Part shown: one piece after another, positions 9,527 through 61,559 of the stretch
Position numbering within the stretch: position 1 is the first letter of the stretch
Layout: each line of letters starts with the position of its first letter
Source: Aromatoleum toluolicum
Lineage (GTDB): Bacteria > Pseudomonadota > Gammaproteobacteria > Burkholderiales > Rhodocyclaceae
Direction: 5' to 3'
DNA: 64,000 bases
Assembly: GCF_012911005.2 (NCBI RefSeq)
Contig: NZ_WTVS01000007.1
Location: forward strand, 1 to 64,000
Program-made: the position numbers and the translations under genes
The notes under the pieces: generated by a model
What the model was told of the DNA's origin: nothing
What the model saw: the letters and a program-made list of their open reading frames with translations, nothing else
Databases searched by the model: none

Positions 9527-9530
9527 GTTT

Positions 9531-11451: not shown

Positions 11452-11454
11452 CCC

Positions 11455-12225: not shown

Positions 12226-12238
12226 CGCCCTTCTCCGC

Positions 12239-29129: not shown

Positions 29130-29227
29130 CGAGGTCCTCGTGATGACGATGAATTGCACAGTCGGCCCGCGTGATCGGACCTACAATGCCGGGTCGCCAA
29201 GTATACCAACCGGCTGGAGTGGCACCT

Positions 29228-30021
<794 letters not shown>

Positions 30022-30025
<4 letters not shown>

Positions 30026-39218: not shown

Positions 39219-39853
39219 ACCACCGCGAGGCCGTAGCGAAGGAAAGACAACATAACCGACTTTCGCCGATCATCGCCGAAAATCAGCCAAACAATGAATG
39301 ACCCACGCCCACCGGACCGTTGTTGGCGACAACCCCAAGGGGTGGGACAGTCGGTACTTAGCACGCCAGTCGCCACAGCCGCTGCCATTCTGCGTTCAGC
39401 AGGCATCTGCGAATGTCCAGCGCTTCGATATCGACGCCCCTTCCAATGACGGACGGCTTCATGGCCCCCGCGACTCCCCCGACGAGACATCTGTCACGAC
39501 CGAAGCCGACCGAATCGCGCTTACGCCCCATCACCCGTCCTACTACGACACTCTTGTACCGCGCCGCAGGACAGGCTACCGCAGCACGAGCAAGCGATAC
39601 GCGCACCAAGAGGTGACTGATAATTCACGGCGTCGTCGTCCGATCAGTGCCAACATTATAATTATATGTCGCGGACCTAACTCGAACACACGCTTTACCG
39701 AGCACCAAGCGTGCCAGGACAGAAACCAGCCCAACTAAGCTGGCTTTGGAAGGCGAATTGCCTACACAAGGAACAGCGGCTTTCGCGACCGACCAATCTT
39801 CGCAGCAACGCTCGTCGGCCCAGTACACTGCTATCGAACCGAGAACCCTAACA
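39219..39853. other. Gene-free gap at the start of the lower-GC stretch
   Basis: I see no convincing gene in these 635 bases. Short open frames on both strands have no recognisable product and no ribosome binding site. The base composition falls sharply here, from about 70-78% G+C in the preceding gene. A TATAAT hexamer at 39657-39662 lies in an AT-rich patch and could be a -10 box for the following methyltransferase operon, about 190 bases before its start, but without a good -35. Confidence 0.4.
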
Positions 39854-40831
39854 ATGGTTGCTTGCAGAATCTGTGCGAACGAGAGTGAGAATAACGAGAT
39901 CGTCGCGCGCGAAATGATGTTTGGCTTTCGCGATGAATTCACATACATCATATGTGGCCGGTGCGGCTGCCTTCAGATTGCACACCCCCCTGAGGACCTT
40001 TCCAAGTATTACCCGAAGAATTATTGGGACTTCCAGCTGCCGCGCATGAACAAGGTCGCAGAAGGACCCGTTTCAAGCTGGCTTCGCAGGCAGCGTGCCG
40101 AATATTGGCTCACTACAGATCTACACATAGTCGGAAAGATCGCTGCAATGCAGCATGTGCAACCGCGTCACTTTGGATGGTTGCGGCGCGGCGGCGTACG
40201 TGATTTCAGTGCCGCGATCCTAGATGTCGGGTGTGGTCTAGGCGACCGACTGCTCACCCTGCGTCGGGAGGGCTTTACTAATCTGGTCGGAATCGATCCG
40301 TTCATCGGCAATGATATTCATTACCAGAACGGCGTGCGTGTACTAAAGCTCTCGGTTCATGAGATGGACGGCGCCTTCGATTTCATTACACTACACCACT
40401 CGTTCGAGCATATGCCGGATCCGCTGCCGACGCTGCAAAGCCTGTTCCGCCTCGTCAAACCGGGTCATGCCGTGCTGATCCGCATCCCGGTCTGCGGCAC
40501 GAATGCGTGGCGAACGTATGGACATAACTGGGTCCAGCTAGACGCCCCTCGGCACCTTTTCCTACACAGCATCATGAGCATGCAGGTGCTGGCCAAGCAA
40601 GCAGGCTTCCGCCTTGGGGATATCGTTTTCGACTCTGAACCTCTGCAATTCTGGGGCAGCGAACAATACGTCCGCGATATACCGTTACTGGACCCACGCT
40701 CCTACGAAGTAAATCCAGAAAGCTCCATATTCACCCGCGAGCAGATTCAACAATACCGGCAGCGTGCAGCACAGCTTAATCTTGCCGGCGATGGCGATCA
40801 GGCGTGTTTCTATCTCGTTCGCGACCACTAA
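39854..40831 (+). CDS. SAM-dependent methyltransferase with N-terminal zinc finger
   Basis: The 325-residue protein starts with a Cys4 knuckle (CRIC ... CGRCG, residues 4-40), as in the sugar-modifying C-methyltransferase relatives of polysaccharide loci. It continues as a class I methyltransferase: LDVGCGLGDRLLTLRREGF near 122 (SAM loop), GIDPF, and FDFITLHHSFEHMPDP near 180. It probably methylates a sugar nucleotide or glycan residue. The ATG at 39854 gives the zinc knuckle directly at the N-terminus; a TTG 108 bases upstream is possible. It is the first gene of a run of closely spaced plus-strand genes. Confidence 0.8.
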   Translation: MVACRICANESENNEIVAREMMFGFRDEFTYIICGRCGCLQIAHPPEDLSKYYPKNYWDFQLPRMNKVAEGPVSSWLRRQRAEYWLTTDLHIVGKIAAMQHVQPRHFGWLRRGGVRDFSAAILDVGCGLGDRLLTLRREGFTNLVGIDPFIGNDIHYQNGVRVLKLSVHEMDGAFDFITLHHSFEHMPDPLPTLQSLFRLVKPGHAVLIRIPVCGTNAWRTYGHNWVQLDAPRHLFLHSIMSMQVLAKQAGFRLGDIVFDSEPLQFWGSEQYVRDIPLLDPRSYEVNPESSIFTREQIQQYRQRAAQLNLAGDGDQACFYLVRDH

Positions 40832-40878
40832 CAGCGGCAATCGCCTCCTTGCATCAGCCCACCGACAAGAATACTTGC

Positions 40879-42345
40879 ATGCCCCTCCGTCAGTCTATTC
40901 GAAGCAGTTCAACATGGCTCGTCGGAAACAACATCGTCGGCCAAGTGCTGCAATTCGGATTCGGAGTGATACTGGCGCGTCTGCTGGTCCCCGCAGATTT
41001 CGGCATGATTGTGACGATCCAGATCTTTACTGGACTCGTCGGGCTTATCGCTTCCGGGGGTATGGGTCAAGCGCTGATTCGCGCAAAGGACGTGACACAG
41101 GCGGATTTTCACGTCGTCTTCAGTCTCCAGCTCGCCATCGGCGGAATCATATATACGACGTTCTTCGGCCTGGCGCCATTCCTTGCCTCGTGGTTTCAAG
41201 ACTCCCGCTACGAAGACCTGGTTCGAGTATCGACATTGAGCTTCCTGCTGCGCCCCTTCATCAATCTCCATGGGATTTGGCTGCAACGCGAGATGCGATT
41301 CAAGGAATCATCGATCGGAAATCTTATAGCAAATATCATTAGCAGTCTTTTCAGCATTGGGCTGGCCGTGACCGGCCATGGCGTTTGGAGTCTTGTCCTT
41401 GGCGGCTTGGCCGGAAGCATGATCAACCTGGCGCTATTCCAACGCCTCACACCGCTGCGCCCCCGCGTGGTATTCGACCGTGAACTTGCATACCGCCATA
41501 GCGGCTTTGGCATCAAGATTTCGCTTAATGACCTGATTAGCTATCTTCGCCATCAGACAAGCAACTTCATCATCACTACGGTTGGAGGGGCCACGATGGT
41601 CGGCTTGTTCAATAAGGGGGACAGCCTTGCAAAACTTCCATTCAACACAATAAGCGGACCGATTTATCAGCCGGTGTTTCGTGCCATGTCCGAGGAGCAG
41701 GACAACCAAGACAAACTCAAGTACCTCTTCTACAAGATGATCTCGTTGCTCACCGTGTACACGCTGCCTTTCTACATAGGCCTCTGGTGGCTGGCGGAGC
41801 CTTTCGTGGTCGTTGTGTATGGAAAGCAGTGGTTGGACGCGGCGATACCGCTCCAGATACTCGCGCCACTCGGTGCACTCTACTGCATCGGCCATCCGTG
41901 CGGCGCGCTGCTAGCTGCGTCGAACCGCCTGGGGCGCGAAATGGTACTTCAGGCAATCACCCTCGTACTCGTGGCAGGCGGCTGCTATATGGGTCTGAAC
42001 TGGGGACTTGCGGGCGTCGCCTTCGGCATCGTCGTCAGTCAGATCTACGCAACCACACATTTCTACGTACTGGCAAGAAAGTGCATCGATACGCGACTCT
42101 CTGATCTCTTCGTAGCCGTGACGCCCGGCATGTTGCTCAATACAGCATTGCTCGCCACGCTCGCCTTGCTCGATCTTGTCTTGCCACCCAACATGCCTCG
42201 GGATTCTGCCCCCGTCTATCTTCTGATCTGCACATTAACCGGAGCATTCGTCTATTCCATCATCTTCCTATATTGCCCACCTACCGCGCTTATCGATGAA
42301 TCGCAACGCTGGAAGCTTCGCTTACGTCTAGCGCGTCAGGATTAG
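40879..42345 (+). CDS. Wzx-type lipopolysaccharide/polysaccharide flippase
   Basis: The 488-residue MOP-superfamily protein has about 12-14 membrane helices and resembles WzxC/oligosaccharide flippases. Typical elements are VGQVLQFGFGVILARLLVPADFGMIV at the N-terminus (residues about 20-45), ASGGMGQALIR and the short basic loops between helices. It would move lipid-linked repeat units across the inner membrane. The ATG at 40879 fits the family; a GTG 75 bases upstream, inside the previous gene, is less likely. Codon use is more AT-rich than in the flanking genes: one 60-base line inside the gene counts to 40% G+C. Confidence 0.88.
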   Translation: MPLRQSIRSSSTWLVGNNIVGQVLQFGFGVILARLLVPADFGMIVTIQIFTGLVGLIASGGMGQALIRAKDVTQADFHVVFSLQLAIGGIIYTTFFGLAPFLASWFQDSRYEDLVRVSTLSFLLRPFINLHGIWLQREMRFKESSIGNLIANIISSLFSIGLAVTGHGVWSLVLGGLAGSMINLALFQRLTPLRPRVVFDRELAYRHSGFGIKISLNDLISYLRHQTSNFIITTVGGATMVGLFNKGDSLAKLPFNTISGPIYQPVFRAMSEEQDNQDKLKYLFYKMISLLTVYTLPFYIGLWWLAEPFVVVVYGKQWLDAAIPLQILAPLGALYCIGHPCGALLAASNRLGREMVLQAITLVLVAGGCYMGLNWGLAGVAFGIVVSQIYATTHFYVLARKCIDTRLSDLFVAVTPGMLLNTALLATLALLDLVLPPNMPRDSAPVYLLICTLTGAFVYSIIFLYCPPTALIDESQRWKLRLRLARQD

Positions 42346-42371: not shown

Positions 42372-44351
42372 ATGAGCAGCACACAACGCTACTTTCTCGA
42401 GGACCTCTTCGCTCCGCCGCCTGAGTCGGGAGATGCGTCGAGGCACATGGTCCGACGAGTCTCTCTTTCGGACGGCACGCGCGGCGCAATCCATCGCATC
42501 GAATGGAGTTTGACGGACGGCACGTCTTGCGTGCTCGACAATGTTGGCGGCGCTGCATGCTTGTTTCTGCGTACCACAGGCACGGAAACGCGATCGATCG
42601 AAGTGGCACTAAGGGGAGGCTACCGACTCCAATCAGTCGCTGCCGGTGGCTGGTTGCTGGTCTCGTCGATCGAAGGCAGCCCGCTGTACTGGATTCCTCG
42701 CCCCCCTATGCTGCGCTCACTTGATGGGCATGGGCATATCACACACGAGTCTCCGGCTACATTGACCGGCATGACGGCATCCGATGCTCTGCTCTTCGCG
42801 CAGTTTTCCAGCCCGGCCATGGGGTTTCATATTGACTTCGTCTTGTGGAAACTACCGCCCGACTTAGCTGATTGGCGCGATGAAACTGACTGCCTTGCGA
42901 CGATTGAGACCCAGCCGTACTTCGTCTACGGATCTCACTCCAGTTACCGGCGCCCCGCGGACGTCTATGCGCATCTGGTGCATGGACACGTATACGAGAC
43001 GCAATTCGCCTGGCCTCGCAACTGGAAGATCGCTGATGAACTCGATGCATATGCCCTGTTTCTCGTTCTGACGGGTCTCGAACTCGCTAGTGGAAAGCGT
43101 CTGTACGGGCTCTTGAAACAGCAGGTGGTGGTATCAGTCATTGCTCGCCAGCGCGACGATGGCGCCTGGTATCACGGCGAGTGGACGGATGACATGGAGT
43201 GCCACGTACGGCTGCATGTCGGTGGCATGCATTTGCTCGCCACGGCACTGGAGGAAGACAGCCACCCAGCCGTCAGGACGGCACTCGCGAAGGCCGCCGC
43301 ATTCGTAACGGAGCTGGCCGATCAAACGGAGAAAGGCGCCTGGTTTCTGCACGACACCCTCGAATTGTCGGCGGCAGGCATGGACAAGTGCCCATTCGCG
43401 TGGCAAGGCAGCCGAACATGGCAAAAGTCGGAAACGAACATGCTGGTTCTCAACACCCATCTCGACAGTCTGATTGCGCTAGATCGCTATCGAGCGCTGA
43501 CAGGTGAGACGAAGTTCGACGCCCTGATAGCCTCAGGACAGGCCGCTACGAGGGCACTTCTAGCATGCCGCCCTGCCGAGAAGCTCTATGCACTTCTATT
43601 TCGAGTGATAGAACTCACGTGGTTGCCCGCGAACTCGGCGGCTCGGCTACCAATGCCCCTACGTGCCCTGAAGCGTCTTGGCTGGAAATATCTGGTTCCG
43701 CGAATGCACCGTATACGCATTCGCTGGCCACGTCTTGTCATGCCCAACGGCTACATTGACCGGGCAATAAACCTTGCCGGCGTCAGTCATGCGTACCACA
43801 CGGTCAACGTTTGGGACTTGCTCCGTTACCAGCACCGCTTCAGCGAGGAAGACCTCCGCGACGTCATCGAGCCAGCTCTGGCCTACACGCGCAATGGTCC
43901 CTTGCTGGAGTATTGGGGCAGCCTCGGGGAAAGGGGGCACGCGCTTGTTTTTTGGGTGGACGCGCTGTGGCACTTGTGCATGACGAGCGGTAACGCCGCG
44001 CATAGAATCTGGCTGGCCGAAGCCATGCTGCAGTGCGCAAGAGCCGGCTTCGGGCTACCTCCTGCGCTCCTTGGCACGAACACCGAGGTCGTTCCCGTGT
44101 CAGAACGAAGGGCATGTCCGTCACCGGTCGATTCGCAACTACGCATTGCAAATCTCGGGCGAAGCTACAGGGACGAAATCCTCATCATCAACCCTACGAC
44201 GCGGGACATTCCCCTAGCCTGGCGGAAAGAACCAGACACAACGCTCCGATGGGTCTCATCCGATGGAGCGGGAAGTTCCACATCGGTGCCAGCGCATGGC
44301 TGGCTGTGGGGGCATCACTATTCTCCGCCGAATCCACCTGACACCGCATGA
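42372..44351 (+). CDS. Unrecognised 659-residue protein, possible alpha/alpha-toroid glycan enzyme
   Basis: I do not recognise this protein. It has no signal peptide or membrane segment. The first 190 residues look beta-rich. Residues about 200-590 are helical and resemble alpha/alpha-toroid enzymes, with aromatic and acidic repeats (WYHGEWTDDMECHVRLHVGG near 275, EKGAWFLHD, WQKSETNMLVLNTHLDSL, HAYHTVNVWDLLRYQ, LLEYWGSLGERGHALVFW). A short beta-rich C-terminus follows. The fold is used by polysaccharide lyases, C5-epimerases and some hydrolases. The setting between a flippase and a WbsX-like gene supports a glycan substrate. Catalytic residues cannot be assigned. Confidence 0.55.
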   Translation: MSSTQRYFLEDLFAPPPESGDASRHMVRRVSLSDGTRGAIHRIEWSLTDGTSCVLDNVGGAACLFLRTTGTETRSIEVALRGGYRLQSVAAGGWLLVSSIEGSPLYWIPRPPMLRSLDGHGHITHESPATLTGMTASDALLFAQFSSPAMGFHIDFVLWKLPPDLADWRDETDCLATIETQPYFVYGSHSSYRRPADVYAHLVHGHVYETQFAWPRNWKIADELDAYALFLVLTGLELASGKRLYGLLKQQVVVSVIARQRDDGAWYHGEWTDDMECHVRLHVGGMHLLATALEEDSHPAVRTALAKAAAFVTELADQTEKGAWFLHDTLELSAAGMDKCPFAWQGSRTWQKSETNMLVLNTHLDSLIALDRYRALTGETKFDALIASGQAATRALLACRPAEKLYALLFRVIELTWLPANSAARLPMPLRALKRLGWKYLVPRMHRIRIRWPRLVMPNGYIDRAINLAGVSHAYHTVNVWDLLRYQHRFSEEDLRDVIEPALAYTRNGPLLEYWGSLGERGHALVFWVDALWHLCMTSGNAAHRIWLAEAMLQCARAGFGLPPALLGTNTEVVPVSERRACPSPVDSQLRIANLGRSYRDEILIINPTTRDIPLAWRKEPDTTLRWVSSDGAGSSTSVPAHGWLWGHHYSPPNPPDTA

Positions 44352-45482: not shown

Positions 45483-45631
45483 GGATCGTCTACGCGCGCT
45501 CCTTCCGTACAACGAAATCAGGCCCCCAACGCTACACGAATGACGCCTAGTTAGCACGGCACGACAAGATTCGCGTCGTTTGCATGGCGACATGGCAGCG
45601 TGCGCGGCCGACCGAGGCGGAGTTTAACCTG

Positions 45632-46423
45632 ATGAAACCTGATCCCATCTCCGTTCTTCTGCATCGAAACGCGGGCGAACACGGTCCCGTGATGCTGGCA
45701 TACCATTCGGTGCAGTCCGGAAAGGAATCGCCGATGTGGCCTTGGGCGGTATCGTTGCACCGTTTTGTCGAGCAGGTGGATTTCCTGGTTGCGCAAGGGT
45801 ACCGGGTCATCACGATGGCGGACTTGGCAATGGGAAAGTTCGATCATGGAGAACGGACGGTTGCGATTACGTTCGATGACGGCTATGTCGATAACTTGCA
45901 GGCTTATCAAGCGCTCCTTGAACGAGGATTGCGCGCCACATGGCTGGTCGTCACGGGTGCGTTTGGTGCGACGCCAAACTGGCCAGGCGATGGCCGCCCT
46001 GCCGGGCGTTTGCTCAGCGTCGCCGAACTGCGTGACATGCATGCAGCCGGCATGGAGATAGGCTCACACACGGTGCATCACGCGCGACTACCTGCCCTGG
46101 ACGACAACGCGCTTGCGCTTGAACTGCAAGACTCGCGGGCGGCACTCGAGGATGCCCTCGGCCTTGCGGTGACAAGCTTTGCGTATCCATACGGAGCATG
46201 GGACATGCGCTGTGCGGGTGCGGTCCGCGCGGCAGGGTATCTCGCCGCGTGCACTACACGTACCGGTTGGGCCCTGCGCGACGGCAATCCATTCACGCTA
46301 CGCAGGCTCACAATCTTCAACCACGACACGGCAGGCACCCTAGCCCGCAAGCTGTATTTCGGTAGTCACGAGGTCGGTTGGAGCGACATCGCCCGTTATG
46401 CGCTGCGGCGCTTGCGAGGCTGA
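45632..46423 (+). CDS. Polysaccharide deacetylase (NodB/CE4 family)
   Basis: The 263-residue protein has the CE4 motifs: TFDDGYVDN near residue 79 (metal Asp pair) and SHTVHH near 145 (two His ligands), plus SFAYPYGAWD further on. It would remove N- or O-acetyl groups from a glycan. No signal peptide is seen, so it may act in the cytoplasm or be attached to the membrane complex. I chose the ATG at 45632 because GGCGGAG lies 9 bases before it; an ATG 48 bases upstream has no such site. It starts the run deacetylase-GT2-GT2. Confidence 0.87.
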   Translation: MKPDPISVLLHRNAGEHGPVMLAYHSVQSGKESPMWPWAVSLHRFVEQVDFLVAQGYRVITMADLAMGKFDHGERTVAITFDDGYVDNLQAYQALLERGLRATWLVVTGAFGATPNWPGDGRPAGRLLSVAELRDMHAAGMEIGSHTVHHARLPALDDNALALELQDSRAALEDALGLAVTSFAYPYGAWDMRCAGAVRAAGYLAACTTRTGWALRDGNPFTLRRLTIFNHDTAGTLARKLYFGSHEVGWSDIARYALRRLRG

Positions 46424-46426: not shown

Positions 46427-47413
46427 ATGTCCGGCCAAAAGTATTCCCCCACCGTCTCGATCGTGATGCCCTGTTTCAATGCCGCAAGCCACCTGCAGAT
46501 GAGCGTGGGAAGCGTGCTAGCCCAGACGAGTGGAGATTGGGAGCTCATCATCGTTGATGACGGCTCACAGGACGCGTCATGGACCGAGCTTCAGCGACTG
46601 GCGCAAGACGAATCGCGGATTCGCATATTTCGGCAGAGGAACGCGGGAGCTGCGGCAGCGCGCAACCACGCGCTGCGTGAAGCACGCGGTTTCTACATCG
46701 CCTTTCTCGATGCCGACGACACTTGGCATCCCGAGTTCCTCGAGGTAATGGAGCAGGCGCTGCGGAATGCAGGCGCTCATGGCTTGACCTACTGCGGCTG
46801 GCAGAATATTACCGACAACGGCTCGCACACAGCACCACCATTTGTGCCGCCGGACTACGAACATGGTGGCAAGATCGAAGCACTTCTTCAGGGCTGTCGC
46901 TGGCCGATCCACGCTGCGCTTGTGAGCGCAGAAGCGATTCGCGAAAGCGGGGGCTTCGACGAGAGCCTGAGTTCTTGCATGGACTATGACCTTTGGTTAC
47001 GCTTGGGCGCGACGCTACCTCTTGTCCGCGTACCGCGCGTTCTGGCCAACTATCATCACCATCAGGGCGATCAGATTACGAAGAACCGCGCGAGGATCGC
47101 GCTCAATCACCGGCGAGTTCAGGAGAAGTTCCTGATCGCAAACCCTGGTGTGCGCGAACGGCTCGGCACGAATCGCGTGCGCGAACTAACTGCGGGAGAA
47201 CTCCTGAAACGCGGCTATGAGAGTTACTGGAAGCGCGACCTCCTCGCTGCGCGCGCAATCTTTCGCGCCGTGATGAAAGAGGGCTATGGCGGGCTGCGCG
47301 ACTGGAAATACTTGATCACGGCGCTTCTTCCCTTGGGTCTGCATCAGGCACTGCTAGGGGCACTGTCGAATGACTCTGCCGATGACGCGCGGCAGCGCCA
47401 GGACGAGCGATGA
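46427..47413 (+). CDS. Family 2 glycosyltransferase
   Basis: The 328-residue enzyme has a GT-A fold: SIVMPCFNAASHL at the start, SVLAQTSGDWELIIVDDGSQD near 35 and FLDADDTW near 90 (the DxD nucleotide-sugar site). The C-terminal third is basic and lacks membrane helices, so it would act at the cytoplasmic face on a lipid-linked acceptor. It begins 3 bases after the deacetylase stop and overlaps the next gene by ATGA. The sugar it transfers cannot be told from sequence. Confidence 0.92.
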   Translation: MSGQKYSPTVSIVMPCFNAASHLQMSVGSVLAQTSGDWELIIVDDGSQDASWTELQRLAQDESRIRIFRQRNAGAAAARNHALREARGFYIAFLDADDTWHPEFLEVMEQALRNAGAHGLTYCGWQNITDNGSHTAPPFVPPDYEHGGKIEALLQGCRWPIHAALVSAEAIRESGGFDESLSSCMDYDLWLRLGATLPLVRVPRVLANYHHHQGDQITKNRARIALNHRRVQEKFLIANPGVRERLGTNRVRELTAGELLKRGYESYWKRDLLAARAIFRAVMKEGYGGLRDWKYLITALLPLGLHQALLGALSNDSADDARQRQDER

Positions 47414-48333
47414 TGCTGACATTCGCGTTCTGTACCTTCAATCGGGCGAGTCGAATCTCCAGACTTGTCGAATCAATGCGGGCCCAGGACTGCCCCGTAC
47501 CGTTCGAGATCCTGGCTATCAACAACAACAGCACCGACAACACAGTCGAAGTGCTAACGGCCCAGGCGGCACAACCCGGCGCACCACTGCGATTCGTCAC
47601 CGAGACACAGCAGGGCATCGTTCCGGCCCGCAACCGTGCGATCGAGGAAGCCATCGGCAGCGACGTCCTTGTTTTCATCGACGACGACGAGCTTCCGGTG
47701 GCAGGCCTTCTGAGGGCGGCACACTCCGCGATTGCCACGGAAGGGGCGCAATGTGCAGGAGGCAGGATCACGATCGACCTGGGTGAGAACGAGCGCCCCA
47801 CGTGGCTCGATGACGAGGTCGCTGGTTTTCTCGGCGAACTAGATCACGGCGCGAGCCCGTTCTGGATCGAAGATGCCTCGAGGCCCGTTTGGTGCGGAAA
47901 CATCGCATACAACATGCGACTCTTTAGAGAGAATCCGCAACTGCGTTTCGATCTACGTTACAACCGGGCCGGCGAGGGCATAGGCGGCGGCGAGGACGCG
48001 ATGATGTTCCGCACCCTACTCGCCCAGGGCGCACGGATCCGATACCGGCCCGACATGGGGGTGCTGCATGCGGTGGATGACTGGAAACTGAAGCGGAGCT
48101 ACTTTCTTCGTTTGCACTATCTGGCAGGAGTGCGGCAGGGACGATACCGCTTGCCCAGCTATGATCGCACGCTCTTTGATGTACCACCGTTCCTGGTTGT
48201 GCAGTTTCTCCGTCAAGCAATGAGGTCGATCGGCATGCAGATCACGCAAAGGCCTGGCTCACTGCGACAGGCCATGAACGCAATTAACACGTTCGGCTGC
48301 CTCGTTGGCTATCGGCAACGCACACGGCCATAG
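47410..48333 (+). CDS. Family 2 glycosyltransferase
   Basis: This 307-residue GT2 enzyme has FAFCTFNRASRISRLVESM at the N-terminus, EILAINNNSTDNTVEVL near 37 and FIDDDELPV near 95 (DDD motif). The later segment NRAGEGIGGGEDAMMFRTLL near 185 is a typical acceptor-site loop of this subfamily. It overlaps the previous GT2 by ATGA, so the two are coupled. It is the last gene of the lower-GC run; a 688-base gap without recognisable genes follows. Confidence 0.92.
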   Translation: MMLTFAFCTFNRASRISRLVESMRAQDCPVPFEILAINNNSTDNTVEVLTAQAAQPGAPLRFVTETQQGIVPARNRAIEEAIGSDVLVFIDDDELPVAGLLRAAHSAIATEGAQCAGGRITIDLGENERPTWLDDEVAGFLGELDHGASPFWIEDASRPVWCGNIAYNMRLFRENPQLRFDLRYNRAGEGIGGGEDAMMFRTLLAQGARIRYRPDMGVLHAVDDWKLKRSYFLRLHYLAGVRQGRYRLPSYDRTLFDVPPFLVVQFLRQAMRSIGMQITQRPGSLRQAMNAINTFGCLVGYRQRTRP

Positions 48334-49021
48334 GCCACAGCGCTACGGTTCATGCGAGATTGTCGAACCCGGATCGGGGGCTCGCGACACTATTAAGAAA
48401 GTATGGCTGCAGGATCGGAAGGTAGGCACTCCCGAGGGTAGGACGCAGTCACGATCGAGTCTGCTGCGTGATGCACGTCCTCGACGGCTGTAACGTGGCG
48501 CGAATAAGGTGAGCCGATGCGATAGTCGCGCTACGGGCACTGGCTCGCGGGAAAGACGTCATGCGGAAAGGCACGTCGGTCGGTGGACACCCTGACATCC
48601 GGGAACGAAACATTCGTACGCTCGCGCTATGGAACAAGGATCCTGTACGCTCCACTTGATCATCACGTTTCCTTGGTCGAACCCGCATCGCCACGCTGGC
48701 CGCGCCCATCGTCGACGGCAAGGTGTCGGCCGGCACCGACGCCGGTGTGCACCTGCCGGCATCAGGAAGATGGTGGATATGTGATCGAGGCACCGTAGCA
48801 GATGGAGATTCGCCCACTCGACGGGGATAAGAATCGGCTCACCAGGCAGTACGCCGGCGATCACCATGCGACAGCCGGCCGAGGCCCGGGCACATGCTGC
48901 ATCGATCCGCATCAAGGCGATTGCTCTCGAGAGTGGCATATCTCAGCTCCGCCATGACGACGCGTCCGATCTTTCGAGACGCACCCCGCAACGGCCGGCT
49001 ATCAGATGGCGAGAATTCACG
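48334..49021. other. Gene-free gap, possibly decayed sequence
   Basis: No credible gene was found in these 688 bases on either strand. Several short frames exist, but none has a start with a ribosome binding site or a recognisable product. Base composition is intermediate, about what a decayed coding stretch would leave. It lies exactly where the lower-GC gene block meets the high-GC block, which makes a recombination or deletion scar plausible. The promoter of the following GT4-sulfotransferase operon should be in its right end. Confidence 0.45.
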
Positions 49022-50164
49022 ATGACGGCGAGAGTTTGCTACTACCTGGGGACATTCGAGGACTGGGGCGGTGCAAGCCGGGCCTTGCTGAATTTCGTCG
49101 TGCGCATCGACCGGCGAAAATTCGAACCACTGGTCGTCGTCACGCAAAGCGGCAAGCTGGTCAACACCCTTGCCGCGAAGGGAATCGAAAGCGCCATACG
49201 CCCAAAGCATGACTGGGACGGCAATCCATTCCGGTACGCCCTGAACGTTGCACGCAGCGCAGCATTTCTGTTGCGCCGCAGGGTTGACCTTGTCCACATG
49301 AACATCGGCTCGCTGGGCTGGAAACCACCGGAGGTACTGGCAGCCCGGCTACTGCGAATTCCCGTGGTCATGCACTTTCACATGGTAGATCCAGAACCGA
49401 CGCCCTTCATCAAGTATGCGAAACAGATCGTCGCGGTGTCGCAGTACGTGGCCAGACACTCAGGATTCGGGACGCGCCACGTGGCGGCCATTCACAATAT
49501 CTCCGACCTCGAGCGCTTCACCCGTGGACGATCGATTCGCGACGAACTCGGCTTGGCGTGCGGTGATCTCGTCGTCGGATTTCTGGGACATGTGAAGCGA
49601 CTCAAAGGCATAGAACTCTTTCTGCGCCTCACCGAGGAACTCGACCGGCCCGACGTGAAGTTTCTGATTGCGGGCGAGATCATGGAAACGGATCCGGCGT
49701 TTTCGGCGCGCTTCAGGGAAATTACCACGTGCAACCCGAGAGTCCGCTATCTGGGCTACCGGACCGATCCCGAGAACATCTATGCGACAGCGGACGTGTT
49801 GATCATGCCGACCCAATGTGAGGAAGCCTGCGCGATGGTGCTGTTCGAAACGGCGGCCGCCAAGAAGCCGATCATTGCGTCGCGCACGGGCGGCACACCG
49901 GAGATCATTCAGGATGGCATGAATGGTCTCCTGTTCGACCGAGAGGATTTCGATACGCTGAAGCGCCATACCTGCTGGCTCCTGGATCACCCAGAGGAAC
50001 GCCTCAGGCTCGGGAACAAGGCGTTTGAGATCGTTCGCAACAGATTCACGGATCAGCCGGTGCGTGAGCTTGAGCGCATCTACATGGAAGCGCTGAACGG
50101 GAACGGCAGTCCAGCCGAGGGTGACGAGGAGCTCACACGGCTTTCGGGCGCCGACTTCAAGTAG
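49022..50164 (+). CDS. Family 4 glycosyltransferase
   Basis: The 380-residue enzyme has a GT-B fold. The N-terminal half begins VCYYLGTFEDWGGASRAL (donor-side Gly loop). The C-terminal half has GFLGHVKRLKGIELFLRL near 190, YLGYRTDPENIYATADVLIMPTQ near 240 and the EX7E motif region EACAMVLFETAAAKKPIIAS near 275. It transfers a sugar from a nucleotide donor with retention. The ATG at 49022 gives the family N-terminus. It is 8 bases ahead of the sulfotransferase gene, so both are probably expressed together. Confidence 0.93.
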   Translation: MTARVCYYLGTFEDWGGASRALLNFVVRIDRRKFEPLVVVTQSGKLVNTLAAKGIESAIRPKHDWDGNPFRYALNVARSAAFLLRRRVDLVHMNIGSLGWKPPEVLAARLLRIPVVMHFHMVDPEPTPFIKYAKQIVAVSQYVARHSGFGTRHVAAIHNISDLERFTRGRSIRDELGLACGDLVVGFLGHVKRLKGIELFLRLTEELDRPDVKFLIAGEIMETDPAFSARFREITTCNPRVRYLGYRTDPENIYATADVLIMPTQCEEACAMVLFETAAAKKPIIASRTGGTPEIIQDGMNGLLFDREDFDTLKRHTCWLLDHPEERLRLGNKAFEIVRNRFTDQPVRELERIYMEALNGNGSPAEGDEELTRLSGADFK

Positions 50165-50172: not shown

Positions 50173-51135
50173 ATGTCGCTAACGGTCCTCGCCAAGCTGC
50201 CGAAACTGCTCGATCCCGAGATTCGCGACAAGAACCTGCGCGCGCTGGGGTGGCGGGCGAAGGAGGCGCTCTGGTCGATCACGCGGCCTGCAACGCCCGA
50301 TCCGGTGTTCGTGATCGGTTGCTCGCGCTCGGGGACGACGGTGACCTTCGAGACGATCGCGGCATCGGGGCATTTCCTGCACTTCGATTACGAGATTCCA
50401 CAACTCTGGAACGCACTGCACGGCCCGCTGAACAACGGCTGGGACTCGGAGGCCGCCACCGCGGACGATGCACGGCCGGAGCACCGCGACCGCGTGCTAG
50501 CGTACTTCTACGCACGGCTCGGCGCGGGGCCGGTGCTCGACAAGACCTGCATCAACACGCTGCGCGTGTCTTACCTGCATGCCCTGTTCCCGCAGGCGCG
50601 CTTCGTGTTCATCCAGCGCGACGGCCGCGACAACGTCAGCTCGATGATGGACGGCTGGCGCCTGGGGCGTACCGACGGGGGCTTCGGACTGACGCAATTT
50701 TTCGGTCTTCCGCCCGAGCCGGTTGCGATAAGCGGCGGGGAGTTCCGCGAATGGCACTTCTTCCTGCCGCCGGGATGGCGCGAGTTAAACCACGCAAGCC
50801 TCGAGGAGGTGTGCGCCTTCCAGTGGATCACGGCGAACCGCCTCGCGCTCGACGCTGCCCGCGCCATTCCCCCGCAACAGTGGATCGGCCTGCATTACGA
50901 GGACATCTTCGAGCGCCCCGTCGACATGTTCCGCGAGGCGTTCGAGCGCCTGGAGGTGCCGTTCGATGCGCAGACCGCGCAGCGGTGCGCGAATCTGGTG
51001 TCGCGACCGACGAGCATCGTGAAGGGGGCACCGCAGAAGCAGAAGTGGAAGGAACACAATCCGGCAGCGGTCGAGCGGATCCTGCCGATGATTGCTCCGC
51101 TGATGCGCGAAATGGGGTACGACCCGGATGACTGA
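50173..51135 (+). CDS. PAPS-dependent sulfotransferase
   Basis: The 320-residue cytoplasmic protein has both PAPS-binding motifs: the 5'-phosphosulfate loop FVIGCSRSGTT near residue 45 and the 3'-phosphate site FVFIQRDGRDNVSS near 145. It would transfer sulfate from PAPS to a hydroxyl or amino group of a sugar or lipid-linked glycan. AGAGGA lies six bases before the ATG. It sits between two glycosyltransferases, so a polysaccharide repeat unit is the likely acceptor. The cysD-cysNC-cysQ block at 26-30 kb could supply PAPS and remove PAP. The acceptor cannot be named. Confidence 0.9.
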   Translation: MSLTVLAKLPKLLDPEIRDKNLRALGWRAKEALWSITRPATPDPVFVIGCSRSGTTVTFETIAASGHFLHFDYEIPQLWNALHGPLNNGWDSEAATADDARPEHRDRVLAYFYARLGAGPVLDKTCINTLRVSYLHALFPQARFVFIQRDGRDNVSSMMDGWRLGRTDGGFGLTQFFGLPPEPVAISGGEFREWHFFLPPGWRELNHASLEEVCAFQWITANRLALDAARAIPPQQWIGLHYEDIFERPVDMFREAFERLEVPFDAQTAQRCANLVSRPTSIVKGAPQKQKWKEHNPAAVERILPMIAPLMREMGYDPDD

Positions 51136-52024
51136 GGCGCCGACGGTCAGCGTCGTCATCCCCGCCTACAACGCGGCCTGGTGCATCGAGCGGGCCGTGC
51201 GCAGCGTGCTCGCCCAGACGTATCGCGAGGTCGAGCTGATCGTGGTCGATGACGGCAGCACCGACGGGACGGCCGAGGTGCTGGCAGGCTGCGCGCCGGG
51301 ATCGCGCGTGCTCGCGAAGCCGAATGGCGGCCTGAGCAGCGCGCGCAACGCGGGGATCGCCGCGGCGCGGGGGGCCTATGTGGCGTTCCTGGACGCGGAC
51401 GACTGGTGGGAGGCCGACAAGCTCGCGCGCCAGGTGGCGCTGATGGAGGATCGGCCGGAGCTCGCATTCTGCTCGACGGCGGCGCGCATCGCCGATCCGG
51501 AGGGGCGCCACCTGGGCGACTGGCCCTGCGGCTGCAGCGGGCAACCCGTGCTCGACGCCATCTTCGCGGCAAACGGCTCGATCGCCGGCAGCGGCTCGGC
51601 GGTGATGGCCCGGGCGGACGCGCTTGCGAAGGCGGGCCCGTTCGACGAGAGCCTGCGCAGCCTCGAGGACGTCGACATGTGGATGCGCCTGGCGGCCGTC
51701 GGCGGCTATGCGTGCGTCGCGGAACCGCTCGTCGTCATCACCAAACGCCCGGACAGCATGAGCCGCAACCTGGACGTGATGCGCGACGCGGCGCGGCGCG
51801 TGATGCGCAAGAACCGCCACCTGCTGCCACCCGACAAGCGCGGCGCGTTCTGGCGTCACGCCTATGCGGGAATGCTGTCGGACTACGCAAAGTGGGCGTG
51901 GCGTTCGCAGCGGCGCGGGCAGGCGCTGCGCGACCTGCTGACCGGCCTGTGCATCGCGCCCATCAGCCGCGGCCGGTTGATGGCGGGCCTGCTGCTGGCG
52001 ATGCTGAGCAACCGGACGGTGTAG
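51128..52024 (+). CDS. Family 2 glycosyltransferase
   Basis: The 298-residue GT2 enzyme has SVVIPAYNAAWCIERAVRSVLAQ at the N-terminus, LIVVDDGSTDGT near 38 and AFLDADDWW near 90 (DxD). It has no membrane helix. The start overlaps the sulfotransferase stop by 8 bases, and the stop is 2 bases before the next gene, so sulfotransferase, GT2 and the GT2-phosphatase fusion are one translational unit. That suggests the sugar it adds is part of the same repeat unit that is sulfated. Confidence 0.93.
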   Translation: MTEAPTVSVVIPAYNAAWCIERAVRSVLAQTYREVELIVVDDGSTDGTAEVLAGCAPGSRVLAKPNGGLSSARNAGIAAARGAYVAFLDADDWWEADKLARQVALMEDRPELAFCSTAARIADPEGRHLGDWPCGCSGQPVLDAIFAANGSIAGSGSAVMARADALAKAGPFDESLRSLEDVDMWMRLAAVGGYACVAEPLVVITKRPDSMSRNLDVMRDAARRVMRKNRHLLPPDKRGAFWRHAYAGMLSDYAKWAWRSQRRGQALRDLLTGLCIAPISRGRLMAGLLLAMLSNRTV

Positions 52025-52026: not shown

Positions 52027-55000
52027 ATGCCGGGCGAACCGCTGCGCATCACGGTCCTGATCTGTACGTATAACCGTGCCGAACTGCTCGCACGTGTCAT
52101 CGAGTCGCTGAACGTCGCACAGAGGCCGGAAAATGCACAGGTCCGCCTCTTCGTCGTGGCGAATGCATGCACGGACGGCACGCATGCGCTGCTCGACGCA
52201 TACGGCGCTACGGCGGGACGCTTGCCGCTGGAGTGGATCAACGAGCCGACCCCGGGAAAGTCGCACGCGCTCAACCGTGCGCTGCCGATGCTCGGAGACC
52301 CGGTCGTGGCCTTCGTCGACGACGATCACCGCGTGGACGCCGGCTATCTGTGCGGCATCGCGCATGCGGCGCGGACTTGGCCGCAGGCGGGCCTGATCTG
52401 CGGGCGCATCCTGCCTGACTGGGATGGCACCGAACCGGACTGGGTGCACGATGACGGCCCCTATCGCATCTATCCGCTGCCCGTGCCCCGCTACGATCAG
52501 GGCGACACGCCAATGCGCGTCGATCTGGATGGCAACATCCCGGGCGGCGGCAATCTTGTTGCGCGCCTCGAGGTCTTGCGCACCACCGGCCCCTTCCTCA
52601 CCGAACTCGGCCCGACCGGCCATAACCTGGGGGGCGCCGAGGATCTGGAGTGGGTTCGCCGCGCGATGCGCACGGGCGCCGTCCTGCAATACGCGCCGGA
52701 AATCGTCCAGTATCACTACGTCGACGGCGAGCGCCTTACGCTGTGGTACCTGATGCGCAAGGGCTTCCAGCGCTCGAAGTCGGTGATGCGCTTCCGTCGA
52801 ACGGAGAGCGGTGTGCCGTTGTACATGTGGCGCAAGGTCGCCGCCTATGCGGGCGGCTGCACGCTGGCGCTGCGCTCGCAGGTTCGGCGCTTCTATCTCG
52901 TGCGGCTCGCGTCGGCCTTCGGCGAGATGAGCGGCATGCGCGAAGCCGCGCGGCACCGGCGCCGGCGTGCTCGCCTGCCCTGGCTGCCGGTGCAGACCAG
53001 CCTTGCGTTGGCCGGCACACTCGGGTTTGCCGGCTTCGGACTTGCCGCCCAACTTGCGTGGTCGAGGATTCCCGATGTGCTGCTGCCGGCGTTGGTGGTC
53101 GCCACGCTGGTGACGCTCGCGCTGGTAGTCAAATCGGTCATCGACTTCTCGCAGACCGGGCCGCAACTGCGCGAGGAAATCGTGCGCCGTTACCGCGCGT
53201 ACTTTCCCTTCGCGATGGCTCGATTGGGCGTGTGGTCGCTGATCATAGGCCTGTTCTGTACGCTGCCGGGCGCCGTGGTTGCGGCAGCCGGGGCCGATGT
53301 GCTCGGGGTTCCGCACGAGCCGTGGCGCGCGGCTGCCGGAGGCCTGCTGTCGCTGGGACTCATCGGCACGTATGTCACCTGCCGAACCCTGGTGCACAAC
53401 CCCGGGCTCATCGTCGCCTCCTGGCAGTATCGCACCGACCGCCTCCAGCGCCTGTGGAACCGCCTTTCCGCACGAGGGCTGCGGCAGGCCGCCATCGCAG
53501 GCGCCGTGGTGACCGCGAGCCTGTTCACGGGACTGGTGATCGCGCTGACGCTGACCGGGCACGGAGCGTCGGCTGCAGCCCTCGCCAGCCTGGGCGTCGG
53601 CTACTGGGGGGTTCTGGTGTTCGCGCTGTGGGAGCCCGAGGGCGAGATTGCCGCACCGCAGCCGTCGGGGCGTCCGAACCTGATCCTGATCGGCTCCGAC
53701 ACGCTGCGCGCCGACCGCGTCGGCACCCGGCGCAAGGGGCAGGCGCTGACGCCGCACATCGACGCCCTCGCGCGCCGCGGGGTGCACTTCGAGAACTGCT
53801 ACGTCCCCTGCGCGAGAACGGCGCCCAGCCTGATTTCGCTGTTCACGGGCACCTGGCCGCACACGCACGGCATCCGCGACAACTTCGTCGCGACCGACGA
53901 AACGCAGCTGGAAGTCCAGGCCTTGCCGACGATCCTGCGCGCCCTCGGCTACCGAACGGCGGCCGTATCGGACTGGTGCGGCGGCGATCTGGGCAAGTTC
54001 TCGCTGGGCTTCGACGTGCTGGATCTGCCCGAGGACCAGTGGAACCTGAAGTTCCTCATCCGCCAAGGCCCGAAGGACATCCGCCTGTTCCTGTCGCTCT
54101 TCCTGCACAACCGCGTCGGCCGCCTGTTGCTGCCTGAAGTGCACTATCTGAGCGGCGCACCGCAGACGACCCAGCTCGGCCAGCGCACCCGCAGGCTGAT
54201 TTCCAGGCTCGCGAGCACGTCTGAGCCCTTCCTGCTCAACGTCTTCTATTCCACGACGCATCCGCCCTTCGCGTCCGAGTACCCGTACTACCTGCGCCAT
54301 GCGGATCCGGACTATTCGGGGGCATCGAAGTTCGCGATGGCGCGGCTGACCGACCCCTTCGAGATCATCCGCCGCCAGGGCGAGCCGCGCGAGGAGTTCG
54401 ACCTCGATCAGATCCTCGCGCTATACGACGGCTGCGTGTCGCAATTCGACGACGAAGTCGGCAAACTCATGAACCATCTGGCCGCAACGGGACTTGCCGA
54501 CAACACCGTCGTCGTGCTGTACAGCGACCACGGCATGGAGTTCTTCGAGCACGATACGTGGGGGCAGGGCAATTCGGCGGTGGGCGATTTCAGTGCGCGG
54601 GTGCCGCTGGTGATCGCGGACCCGAGAATGAATGAACCGGTGCGGGTCGGTCAGGTCGTGCGCTCGATCGACGTGCTGCCCACCCTCCTCGACCTGCTCG
54701 CCGCCCCCTCGGTGCGCTGTGACGGCGTGTCGCTCACGGCAACGATGCAGGATCCACCGCGCGAGCTGAATCTGAAAGGCTTCAACGAGACCGGCATCTG
54801 GATCGCGAGAGTGCCCGGCCTGCCGAGCGACCACCTCAACTACCCCGAACTGCTGGAACTCTTGGACATACCGAATGAGGCCAGCGGCTCGCTGTCGATC
54901 AAGCACGAGTACAAGGAACGAGTTGTGGTCGCCAAAGACCGTATGTTGCGCGACGGCCGTTGGAAACTCGTCTATCAACCGTTGGAAAACGGCATGAAGC

Positions 55001-55185
55001 TCACCCTCTTCGACCTCGAAACCGACGCAAACTGCACTCGCGACCTCTCAGCCGAAAATCCGGAACTCGTAAATCGGCTGTGGCAGGACTTGCGCGACTG
55101 GATCGAACGCGATCCGGTTGTGCGCCGTCACCTCTTGAGCGCACCGTCCGCAACGCCGGCTATTCCGGCTTCTTCTCTTGGTTAG
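52027..55185 (+). CDS. GT2 glycosyltransferase fused to an alkaline phosphatase/sulfatase-fold domain
   Basis: The 1052-residue protein combines three parts. Residues 6-230 are a GT2 domain (VLICTYNRAELLARVI, FVDDDHRVD near 98, GAEDLEWVRRAM near 203). Residues about 320-540 hold some six membrane helices. Residues 548-1040 are an alkaline-phosphatase-superfamily domain: LILIGSDTLRADRVG (metal Asp558), TAPSLISLFTG at 598-608, and SDHGMEFFEHD (Asp834, His835). At the nucleophile position the sulfatase signature CxPSR is replaced by Thr598-Ala-Pro-Ser-Leu, so an FGly sulfatase is unlikely; a Thr nucleophile fits phospho- or phosphoglycerol/ethanolamine transferases and some hydrolases. It starts 2 bases after the previous GT2. 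Confidence 0.85.
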   Translation: MPGEPLRITVLICTYNRAELLARVIESLNVAQRPENAQVRLFVVANACTDGTHALLDAYGATAGRLPLEWINEPTPGKSHALNRALPMLGDPVVAFVDDDHRVDAGYLCGIAHAARTWPQAGLICGRILPDWDGTEPDWVHDDGPYRIYPLPVPRYDQGDTPMRVDLDGNIPGGGNLVARLEVLRTTGPFLTELGPTGHNLGGAEDLEWVRRAMRTGAVLQYAPEIVQYHYVDGERLTLWYLMRKGFQRSKSVMRFRRTESGVPLYMWRKVAAYAGGCTLALRSQVRRFYLVRLASAFGEMSGMREAARHRRRRARLPWLPVQTSLALAGTLGFAGFGLAAQLAWSRIPDVLLPALVVATLVTLALVVKSVIDFSQTGPQLREEIVRRYRAYFPFAMARLGVWSLIIGLFCTLPGAVVAAAGADVLGVPHEPWRAAAGGLLSLGLIGTYVTCRTLVHNPGLIVASWQYRTDRLQRLWNRLSARGLRQAAIAGAVVTASLFTGLVIALTLTGHGASAAALASLGVGYWGVLVFALWEPEGEIAAPQPSGRPNLILIGSDTLRADRVGTRRKGQALTPHIDALARRGVHFENCYVPCARTAPSLISLFTGTWPHTHGIRDNFVATDETQLEVQALPTILRALGYRTAAVSDWCGGDLGKFSLGFDVLDLPEDQWNLKFLIRQGPKDIRLFLSLFLHNRVGRLLLPEVHYLSGAPQTTQLGQRTRRLISRLASTSEPFLLNVFYSTTHPPFASEYPYYLRHADPDYSGASKFAMARLTDPFEIIRRQGEPREEFDLDQILALYDGCVSQFDDEVGKLMNHLAATGLADNTVVVLYSDHGMEFFEHDTWGQGNSAVGDFSARVPLVIADPRMNEPVRVGQVVRSIDVLPTLLDLLAAPSVRCDGVSLTATMQDPPRELNLKGFNETGIWIARVPGLPSDHLNYPELLELLDIPNEASGSLSIKHEYKERVVVAKDRMLRDGRWKLVYQPLENGMKLTLFDLETDANCTRDLSAENPELVNRLWQDLRDWIERDPVVRRHLLSAPSATPAIPASSLG

Positions 55186-60201: not shown

Positions 60202-61461
60202 CTAGCAACGGCCTGCATCGGGCGAGCGTCGGTATGTCACGTCGCCAAGCAAATACCTTGCTGCGCCGAGCAGGGCGCCCAGACCGCTGTATTTGAGGAG
60301 CCTGGCCACGCCCGGCTCATTGCAGACTCTGGCGCACCACGCGGCAAGCCGCGGCGTCCACCGCCGCTCGCGGAGCGGCGACGCAGCGTCGCGCAGGGCC
60401 TGCGCCAGTTCGGCGGTGGTCGTGAAACATAGATCCGGCCGGACAGACTGCGCCATGCGCAGCGCGCGGCCGAGCTCGGCGACTGCCGCGACGCGTGCTG
60501 GCGGCGGGCCGATGAAGCTCTCGCGGTGCGTTTCGAGCAGCAAGGGCCGGCCCTCGCCGCACTTGCGCGCTAGAGCGGCGGTCACATCTTCGGCACGGTG
60601 CCCGCGCACCGGTTCGAAATAGGCGTCGCGCACGACGTAGGTGACGCCGCCTCGCCCGATTTCTCCATTGCGGATGCGGCGCGCGGGCGGCAGCAGCCGG
60701 CCGGCGGCGTCTCGCCCTTCGTAGCGCCAACCCGGCGTGACCACCACCCGCACGCCGTGTGCGGCCCAAGCTTGCTCGACGCCATCGTCCCACACGAATG
60801 TGTTCGGCACTGCGACCTCGGGGGCACCTCCAAACACGCGTTGCAGCAGGTCGGTCTCTTCGTGCACCGCCTGCGCGACCGCAACGGGATCGAGCGGAGC
60901 GCTGGGCAGGCAGGTGCAATCGACCCACCGGCTTTGCAGCGGTGACGGGAGCGCTTCGCTGCGCAGCCCCCCTTCGTCTAACCAGCGCAATATCCCCTCG
61001 GAATTGCACCCGTCGGCCACACGCAGCCGCGCCATTAAGGAGGCGGGCCAGAAGTGCTCCAGACCGTGCCGTTGGAGCGCGAAGACGCCTGCGCGACACC
61101 CATCGCACATCGCAGCGACGATCGGCGCGAAATCCGGCTCAAGAAGCGAACGACGGGCATAGAGGGAGAAGCCGGAGGCACGGATTGCGGCGGCGTCGGG
61201 CACACCGCCTACGACGCCGAGGGTCATCACTGCGGACCGCCCACCGCGGTCGCGCACCGCCCCCAGTGTCGCGGCAATCTCGCGCAGGGCCGCAGCGTCT
61301 TCCTCCGGCCCCGGCCCCCAGTCGTCACTTTCAACGATCAGGACGGGCCGAGCGAGTACGGGCTCGCGCCACACGGCCGCGAGGGCGCGCCGGTGCAGCA
61401 CCGCCAGCGCAATAACCGCAAAGCCGAACCACGCGAGGATCAGGATCAGTGCATAACCCAT
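60202..61461 (-). CDS. Membrane-anchored polysaccharide deacetylase-like protein
   Basis: The 419-residue protein has one N-terminal membrane helix (residues 2-25) and a domain resembling the NodB/beta-alpha-barrel deacetylases: LIVESDDWGPGPEEDAAAL near 50 with a paired Asp. The His ligand motif is not obvious; candidates are QRHGLEHFWP and LETHRESFIG. The second is the kind of late His seen in divergent deacetylases. The ATG at 61461 (MGYALILILAWFG) puts the helix at the start. It is the first gene of the minus-strand run and divergent from the amidotransferase gene. Activity is uncertain. Confidence 0.6.
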   Translation of the reverse strand: MGYALILILAWFGFAVIALAVLHRRALAAVWREPVLARPVLIVESDDWGPGPEEDAAALREIAATLGAVRDRGGRSAVMTLGVVGGVPDAAAIRASGFSLYARRSLLEPDFAPIVAAMCDGCRAGVFALQRHGLEHFWPASLMARLRVADGCNSEGILRWLDEGGLRSEALPSPLQSRWVDCTCLPSAPLDPVAVAQAVHEETDLLQRVFGGAPEVAVPNTFVWDDGVEQAWAAHGVRVVVTPGWRYEGRDAAGRLLPPARRIRNGEIGRGGVTYVVRDAYFEPVRGHRAEDVTAALARKCGEGRPLLLETHRESFIGPPPARVAAVAELGRALRMAQSVRPDLCFTTTAELAQALRDAASPLRERRWTPRLAAWCARVCNEPGVARLLKYSGLGALLGAARYLLGDVTYRRSPDAGRC

Positions 61462-61519
61462 CGAAAATCCGGGGGCTGCGGGTGGACGACGAAACCACGG
61501 GAGCCGCACGAGGCAGGGT

Positions 61520-61559
61520 GTCGAATGCACGCACGAGCGTGACCTGTGCTGCATTCGAC
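61520..61559. promoter_or_regulatory. Nested inverted repeat in a divergent promoter region
   Basis: In the 155-base gap between the divergent deacetylase-like and amidotransferase genes, a perfect 10-bp inverted repeat (61520-61529 with 61550-61559) flanks a 20-base centre that itself contains a 5-bp inverted repeat (61528-61532 with 61537-61541). This could be an operator for a dimeric regulator controlling both operons. No regulator gene is in the window. Confidence 0.5.

Follow-up and report, generated by a model that had tools for sequence, protein, structure and literature searches.

Headgroup transferases of the EptA/LtaS type, members of the alkaline phosphatase (AP) superfamily, have five helices and a catalytic domain in the periplasm. 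Glycosyltransferases of family 2 (GT2) draw on cytosolic nucleotide sugars. Here we describe a gene of Aromatoleum toluolicum that encodes a GT2 domain, a membrane part with six predicted helices and a sulfatase-like AP-superfamily domain in a single chain, P0001. The gene lies in a window of 64,000 nucleotides, the whole stretch of DNA that was analysed (assembly GCF_012911005.2, contig NZ_WTVS01000007.1, positions 1 to 64,000, forward strand). The fusion is real. Its product is tentatively read, with slightly less than even confidence, as a bifunctional inner-membrane enzyme of exopolysaccharide (EPS) assembly with both catalytic parts in the cytoplasm, which would add a sugar and then, via phospho-Thr598, a phospho-substituent before export.

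In Thauera and Rubrivivax, the gene is part of EPS clusters that have been linked to flocculation and biofilm. For Thauera MZ1T, the legend of Fig. 5 in PMC4784049 labels mz1t_3253 'sulfatase [wbbL]' and mz1t_3251 a hypothetical protein. According to the available sections of that paper, deacetylase 3249 restores flocculation, and the EPS contains rhamnose, galacturonic acid, GlcNAc, N-acetylfucosamine and possible esterified non-sugar substituents, the latter citing earlier work. The Rubrivivax gelatinosus counterpart, RGS1_10427, is labelled 'sulfatase (wbbL)'; in the available part of PMC3684757, transposon hits are marked in neighbouring genes and not in RGS1_10427. A literature search for the locus tags of the Thauera and Rubrivivax genes returned PMC3684757 as the sole match. 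Among open-access PMC papers, judged by titles and opening lines of abstracts, none was found to deal with a cytoplasmic headgroup transferase, a glycosyltransferase (GT)-sulfatase fusion or the locus of such a fusion. Within EPS clusters, the fusion gene is conserved but unstudied.

The reading frame runs from an ATG at 52027 to a stop codon ending at 55185 with no internal stop. A sequence-only reading of the window, made earlier, had described GT2, about six membrane helices and a sulfatase-fold domain in one 1052-residue chain, and the reading frame, Pfam matches and hydropathy bear this out. A protein search covered 150 genomes, including the genome of origin. Near-full-length matches were found in 8 of 16 other genomes of the genus, in G070, which belongs to a different genus of the family, and in G104, G117 and G139, which represent three further families of the order; identities were 53–93%. 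The match crosses a stop located at the C-terminal end in G014 and G104. In a scan of genome contigs, 125 of the 130 matching stretches encode a relative; 80 loci were retained. These come from Aromatoleum, Thauera, Thiobacillus, Nitrotoga, Sulfuriferula, Sulfuricella, Hydrogenophilales, Methylophilaceae, Chromatiaceae and other taxa. GT2 and AP parts share one frame in 65 of the 80 loci; four of these reach a contig end, and the GT2 start of L106 lies in another frame. The sequence-only reading had proposed looking for the same architecture elsewhere and had named two merged genes as a finding that would count against it. The architecture recurs, and merged genes or an assembly error were rejected, since the parts share a frame in the 65 loci and the protein search showed the same for 12 other genomes.

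Other arrangements of the same parts were found. A different GT2 precedes the same membrane-AP part in five loci (L116, L120, L121, L123 and L129, with Pfam run on L129 only). The membrane-AP part stands alone in six (L108, L111, L127, L128, L130 and L133), and four loci are cut by contig ends. On contig C77 of G070 and in L127 and L128, the GT2 and membrane-AP parts are encoded separately, in the gene order GT2, sulfotransferase, GT2, membrane-AP. A quick tree of 84 AP domains was built. The tree and the topology counts below exclude near-copies (>95% identity), six loci that were duplicated or truncated, and most of those from genome searches; L051 is on the tree and absent from the topology counts. 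The four of five alternative-GT fusions placed on the tree are scattered among ordinary fusions. Four labels (two GT types, alone, cut) require 13 changes on this tree, so fusion and fission recur. From the recurrent fusion, the alternative GT2 domains and the separate genes at the same locus, we infer that the GT and membrane-AP parts are functionally linked. In wider samples, the AP family was found at E <= 1e-60 in 21 of 369 genomes of the class, including the genome of origin, and in that genome only among 398 of the phylum. A phage collection gave weak matches only, in 9 records. None of the matches in 600 plasmid records reached 80% query coverage, and the best among those listed was a Leptospira protein (30%). 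In G117, the intact fusion gene is followed about 1.3 kb downstream by a second AP domain copy that is incomplete and broken (L050:13198-13659).

Domains were assigned using Pfam and NCBIfam. The GT2 part matches PF00535 at residues 9-143 (49 bits, cutoff 23.3) and PF13641 at residues 8-231. Motifs DDD98-100 and ED205-206, corresponding to the DxD and catalytic acid of GT2, are invariant in 13/13 aligned fusions. Its top NCBIfam GT match is HpsE, at 86 bits and under the model cutoff of 300. A Pfam scan of residues 325-545 found no family above cutoff. The AP domain matches Sulfatase PF00884 at residues 550-891 (146 bits, cutoff 25). SGSH_C (PF16347) is barely above cutoff in 4/4 homologues scanned and is not seen in P0001 at E 0.001.

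Homologues were aligned after removal of near-copies >93% identical, truncated loci, the five alternative-GT loci and L118, which has a longer frame. Alignment A3 holds 60 locus rows and P0001, and A4 holds the AP domains of 38 of those loci and of the window. In HMMER alignments to the solved structures 2vqr, 6hhm and 6pt6, Thr598 falls on the catalytic position of the CxPxR motif and Leu602 on its Arg; we take 2vqr and 6pt6 to bear Ala and Ser, respectively, where the native Cys stands. In the 6pt6 alignment, Asp649 and Cys651 occupy the GKWH Lys/His positions and Gln847 a later Lys, all presumably sulfate-binding residues of sulfatases. Thr598 is identical in all 13 aligned fusions and all 84 AP domains, and D558, R561, D563, R597, H745, D834, H835, E841, Q847, N849 and K980 are likewise invariant in the 84. 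Position 602 is Leu, Ile or Met and position 651 Cys, Ala or Ser throughout. By comparison with other members of the superfamily, D558, D834 and H835 are assumed to be metal ligands; in EptA and LtaS, a Glu stands at the position equivalent to D558. A pseudo-enzyme is thought unlikely, as the active-site residues are invariant.

Of the features of formylglycine (FGly) sulfatases (S1), PF00884 is present, and the C/S-x-P/A-x-R motif, the GKWH Lys/His and the downstream Lys are absent. The Thr nucleophile with an Asp/His metal site of the EptA/LtaS type is present, and no match to the family models (LtaS, YejM) reaches cutoff. All NCBIfam matches of the AP domain are under their cutoffs, with E-values of 5e-36 for arylsulfatase and 4e-32 for choline sulfatase versus 4e-6 for LtaS (25.8 bits, 970 needed) and 1e-5 for YejM (24.1 bits, 825 needed); EptA and OpgB models were not among the 14 listed. 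A profile of 39 AP domains matched 152 PDB entries at E <= 0.01, and the best 60 of the 152 are sulfatases or phosphonate monoester hydrolases (PMHs) by name. By these comparisons the AP domain appears to stem from the sulfatase/PMH branch yet lacks the FGly motif; EptA itself was not compared directly. The sequence-only reading had taken Thr598-Ala-Pro-Ser-Leu to make an FGly sulfatase unlikely, and the replacements at Leu602, Asp649, Cys651 and Gln847 strengthen that view. A structural match to FGly sulfatases with the nucleophile elsewhere was another finding that it had named as counting against it; in sequence alignments to solved sulfatases and PMHs it is Thr598 that falls on the catalytic position. 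It had also pointed to Thr nucleophiles in phosphoethanolamine and glycerol-phosphate transferases of the superfamily; a kinship with the LtaS/YejM group is not supported by the NCBIfam and PDB comparisons.

An FGly sulfatase was rejected on motif, and FGly-sulfatase chemistry is unlikely on the same grounds. It is highly improbable that the domain is an FGly-independent sulfatase trimming sulfate added by the neighbouring sulfotransferase. A PF13469 sulfotransferase gene is adjacent and a CysQ gene lies within the window, but the hallmark residues listed above, Thr598 included, are replaced. The presence of the sulfotransferase also varies among the 80 loci, which were fetched with <=8 kb per side: it is found with >=60% identity in 15, only as a 35-39% paralogue in 42, and not at all in 23 as fetched. 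Moreover, the available sections of PMC5066984 state that oxidised Thr would yield a ketone and not FGly, to those authors' knowledge. The same SulfAtlas paper advises that Thr proteins of the TXNXE type are not to be taken as functional sulfatases without experiment (PMC5066984); the TAPSL motif found here is a different one.

The domain's kinship also bears on a second alternative, a cytoplasmic phosphodiesterase or phosphatase that would act beside the GT2 and take a phospho-group off an intermediate, either lipid-linked or a nucleotide. The closest solved relatives are hydrolases by name, and PF01663 (nucleotide pyrophosphatase) likewise exceeds its cutoff (62.6 bits, cutoff 23). However, a fixed membrane tether beside a GT2 would suit modification of a lipid-linked product at least equally, and a hydrolase of this kind is considered unlikely.

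The hydropathy profile averaged over 56 homologues has six peaks, close to residues 334, 358, 412, 442, 496 and 524. The N-terminus is placed inside because of the cytosolic donors of GT2, and six helices would bring the AP domain back inside. Topology was scored with a home-made model with hand-set parameters. For P0001 it gave six helices with the C-terminus inside. Model likelihood favours inside in 51/59 ordinary (GTN) fusions, 4/4 alternative-GT fusions and 2/2 cut rows. The best (Viterbi) path ends inside in 56, 4 and 2 of these, respectively, and in 13 of 18 standalone forms, the other five being outside. Among controls, the expected side was obtained for BcsG, YejM, BcsA, Tsr and L003. 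No helix was found in L006, helices were under-counted in several controls, and the N-terminal side given for BcsG and BcsA is unlikely.

Loop charges and Cys content were then compared. In 59 fusions, mean Lys+Arg is 4.9 in loops 2-3 and 6.1 in loops 4-5 versus 0.3 in loops 3-4 and 1.1 in loops 5-6. Net charge of the AP-side loops is the higher in 78 of 83 proteins and the lower in 5. AP domains of the 78 proteins with inside-type charges have a mean of 7.95 Cys (range 2-10), and P0001 has 6. C-terminal domains of the membrane-anchored AP-superfamily proteins of the same genome, L002, L003 and L005, and of LapC have 0, and that of BcsG has 3 (boundaries hand-set); L006 was among the topology controls and not among these. 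Neighbouring enzymes presumed to be cytosolic have 1.31 Cys per 100 residues beside the 78 proteins (n=605) versus 1.33 beside the inverted set (n=18). In L118 (Nitrotoga sp. 1052, 8907-13268), a PF04464 domain of the CDP-glycerol-glycerophosphotransferase type follows the AP domain at the C-terminus in the same frame (45.3 bits, cutoff 22.1, 138 of 367 profile positions). A domain of this type would require a cytosolic donor. NCBIfam matches of the L118 domain are weak, and no PDB match to it was found. In L117, PF04464 is a separate gene about 500 nt downstream, 55% identical to the L118 domain, and it occurs in 2 of 95 loci altogether. Helix count, loop charges, Cys content and the L118 fusion favour a cytoplasm-facing AP domain, as judged by composition and topology rules.

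The five proteins with inverted loop charges (L148, L149, L151, L152 and L154) are all standalone, have 1-2 Cys per AP domain (mean 1.2) and form one clade on the quick tree (SH-aLRT 91). The path calls four of them outside, and no helix was detected in L151. N-terminal tails were read automatically in 12 of 18 standalone forms, with start codons guessed. Net charge is zero or negative in 8/9 inside-type tails, L153 being the exception, and positive in 3/3 inverted ones. In L108, an earlier Met would add a sixth helix and a basic tail. These signatures suggest that one standalone clade is oriented oppositely, toward the periplasm, with the same invariant active site. Searches for further periplasm-type members found none new among the members read from them; these, L167 (G219, truncated and already matched in the class sample), L169 and L170, have 4-6 Cys and inside-type loops by eye. 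It is possible, though rather doubtful, that an AP-superfamily membrane family reversed its orientation during evolution while keeping the same active site, most of the members seen facing the cytoplasm, often fused to a GT, and one clade facing the periplasm. If so, the shared substrate must be reachable from either leaflet, as a phospholipid headgroup or a lipid-linked glycan would be. In that case the fused form would be, to our knowledge, the first headgroup transferase of the superfamily to face the cytoplasm, and it would couple glycosylation and phospho-decoration in one chain. A real inversion would offer a natural test of how an enzyme switches membrane side.

The sequence-only reading had proposed that the enzyme may add a sugar inside and add or hydrolyse a phospho-group outside. 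On this model, a periplasmic AP domain would add phosphoethanolamine or phosphoglycerol to the exported glycan, like EptA or BcsG. This is quite unlikely. It is consistent with the Thr nucleophile and D/D/H metal motif, with the periplasmic-type charges and Cys of the five-member clade and with the fusions L019, L089 and L117, whose AP domain the model places outside. The first and fourth helix peaks of P0001 are also the two least hydrophobic (1.31 and 1.27; others 1.86-2.45), and a first helix that does not span would leave five and place the domain outside. In the family average, however, all six peaks are present and the first is clear, and the loop charges, the Cys contrast with anchored AP-superfamily proteins and the C-terminal PF04464 of L118 point to both activities inside.

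Several points weigh against the proposed cytoplasmic transferase. Likelihood favours inside in only 9 of 18 standalone forms, and differences in log-likelihood are small (mean 2.1 in GTN fusions). Inside counts of the path include rows without helices, five fusions and four standalone forms (L130, L133, L151 and L153). Path helices in the 59 GTN fusions number six in 32, four in 19, three in 2, seven in 1 and none in 5. Controls L002 and L005 fell narrowly on the wrong side. L147 has an outside path although its loop charges are inside-type, and L153 has only 2 Cys though its charges are inside-type. Basic loops are always AP-side, and their positivity may be functional and not topological. 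The contrast in charge and Cys amounts to a single evolutionary event, since all five inverted proteins fall in one clade. We also know of no cytoplasm-facing headgroup transferase of the AP superfamily, and the domain may instead act as a hydrolase.

The proposed cytoplasmic enzyme builds on features seen in the sequences: the fusion, its conservation, the Thr and metal motif, the loss of sulfatase hallmarks and the EPS locus. Transferase and not hydrolase activity, a phospholipid donor and a lipid-linked acceptor are suggested by analogy. The GT2 part would place a sugar on a lipid-linked oligosaccharide repeat unit. The AP part, held by the six helices, would use Thr598 and the D558/D834/H835 metal site to take up a phospho-substituent as covalent phospho-Thr. 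The likeliest donor would be phosphoethanolamine or phosphoglycerol of a membrane phospholipid; such headgroups are favoured because they would be available on either leaflet, a requirement if the family works on both sides of the membrane. The phospho-substituent would then pass to the same repeat unit, and a flippase would export the unit. A phospho-substituent added before export would help to set the charge of the floc polymer and would link sugar addition and decoration in one chain.

By gene content, the fusion gene lies in a recurring EPS locus (Table 1), which also holds WbsX, a TPR protein and an asparagine-synthase-like gene. Among the 80 loci, matches were found to the TPR protein in 65, GT4 in 64, sulfotransferase in 57, deacetylase in 53, asparagine-synthase-like gene in 43 and flippase in 23. 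Deacetylases are of two types relative to the window gene, with >=50% identity in 31 loci and <50% in 22; the latter also occur in Thauera and Aromatoleum (e.g., L055, L058 and L081). In Thauera aminoaromatica S2 (L081), the gene is fused and follows GT2, deacetylase, GT2, sulfotransferase and GT2 genes, in that order. The deacetylase of L081 is only 33% identical to that of the window, which is a counterpart of mz1t_3249 by position only. With regard to a possible XrtA/PEP-CTERM-type EPS locus, the exosortase-A-associated genes seen are an acyl-CoA ligase (TIGR03098, 803 bits, cutoff 592) at 31867-33762 and a match to asparagine synthase TIGR03108 with 281 of the 817 bits needed. CysQ at 29171-30025 (3'-phosphoadenosine 5'-phosphate phosphatase, TIGR01331, 280 bits) and the sulfotransferase-like gene at 50173-51135 suggest polysaccharide sulfation dependent on 3'-phosphoadenosine 5'-phosphosulfate. 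A 450-residue protein encoded at 60202-61554 on the reverse strand has no Pfam or NCBIfam match at E 0.001 and has matches at 39-75% identity in 53/80 EPS loci. Three long reading frames on the forward strand of the EPS region, at 42372-44351 (659 aa), 36821-39301 (826 aa) and 33497-35374 (625 aa), matched neither Pfam nor NCBIfam at the thresholds applied.

Table 1. Coordinates of the fusion gene, its predicted parts and neighbouring genes in the window.
Feature	Coordinates	Strand	Length or basis
Fusion gene encoding GT2, membrane and AP-superfamily (sulfatase-like) parts	52027..55185	+	1052 aa
GT2 glycosyltransferase domain, residues 1-315	52027..52971	+	Pfam and invariant columns
Membrane part, about residues 317-534	52975..53628	+	Six predicted helices
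AP-superfamily domain with sulfatase-type C-terminal stretch, residues 545-1035	53659..55131	+	Pfam, profile comparison
Asp558, predicted metal ligand	53698..53700	+	Invariant 84/84
Thr598, predicted nucleophile	53818..53820	+	Invariant 84/84
Asp834-His835, predicted metal ligands	54526..54531	+	Invariant 84/84
GT2 gene (GT2d), directly upstream of the fusion gene	51128..52024	+	Pfam, locus comparison
Sulfotransferase-like gene (PF13469)	50173..51135	+	Pfam
GT4 glycosyltransferase gene	48866..50164	+	Pfam
GT2 gene, best NCBIfam match HpsE, ~29% identical to GT2 part of the fusion	47410..48333	+	
GT2 gene	46427..47413	+	Pfam
Polysaccharide deacetylase gene (PF01522)	45584..46423	+	Pfam
Wzx/MOP-type flippase gene	40804..42345	+	

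Compared with described clusters, the gene order of L081 matches mz1t_3248 to mz1t_3253 of Thauera MZ1T as given in the available part of PMC4784049. The genes mz1t_3253 and RGS1_10427 occupy the same order in floc and biofilm EPS clusters, and they are matched to the fusion by gene order and label, not by sequence. HpsE-like GT2 enzymes are the top, sub-cutoff NCBIfam match to the GT part, which in the fusion is joined to a membrane-AP part. FGly sulfatases and PMHs (SulfAtlas S1-like; 6hhm, 6hr5 and 2vqr) are the nearest solved relatives by sequence and share the core and the sulfatase-type C-terminal stretch. Unlike them, the fusion has Thr at the FGly position, replacements of the signature Arg, Lys, His and Lys, a six-helix tether and a GT2. 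The headgroup transferases EptA, LtaS, BcsG and OpgB have a Thr nucleophile and N-terminal helices in common with it. The match to LtaS and YejM is very weak, and for the fusions hydropathy, loop charges and a weak topology model favour six helices and a cytoplasmic domain. In contrast to these transferases, the fusion combines a sulfatase-type C-terminal stretch, six helices and a predicted cytoplasmic domain with a fused GT2.

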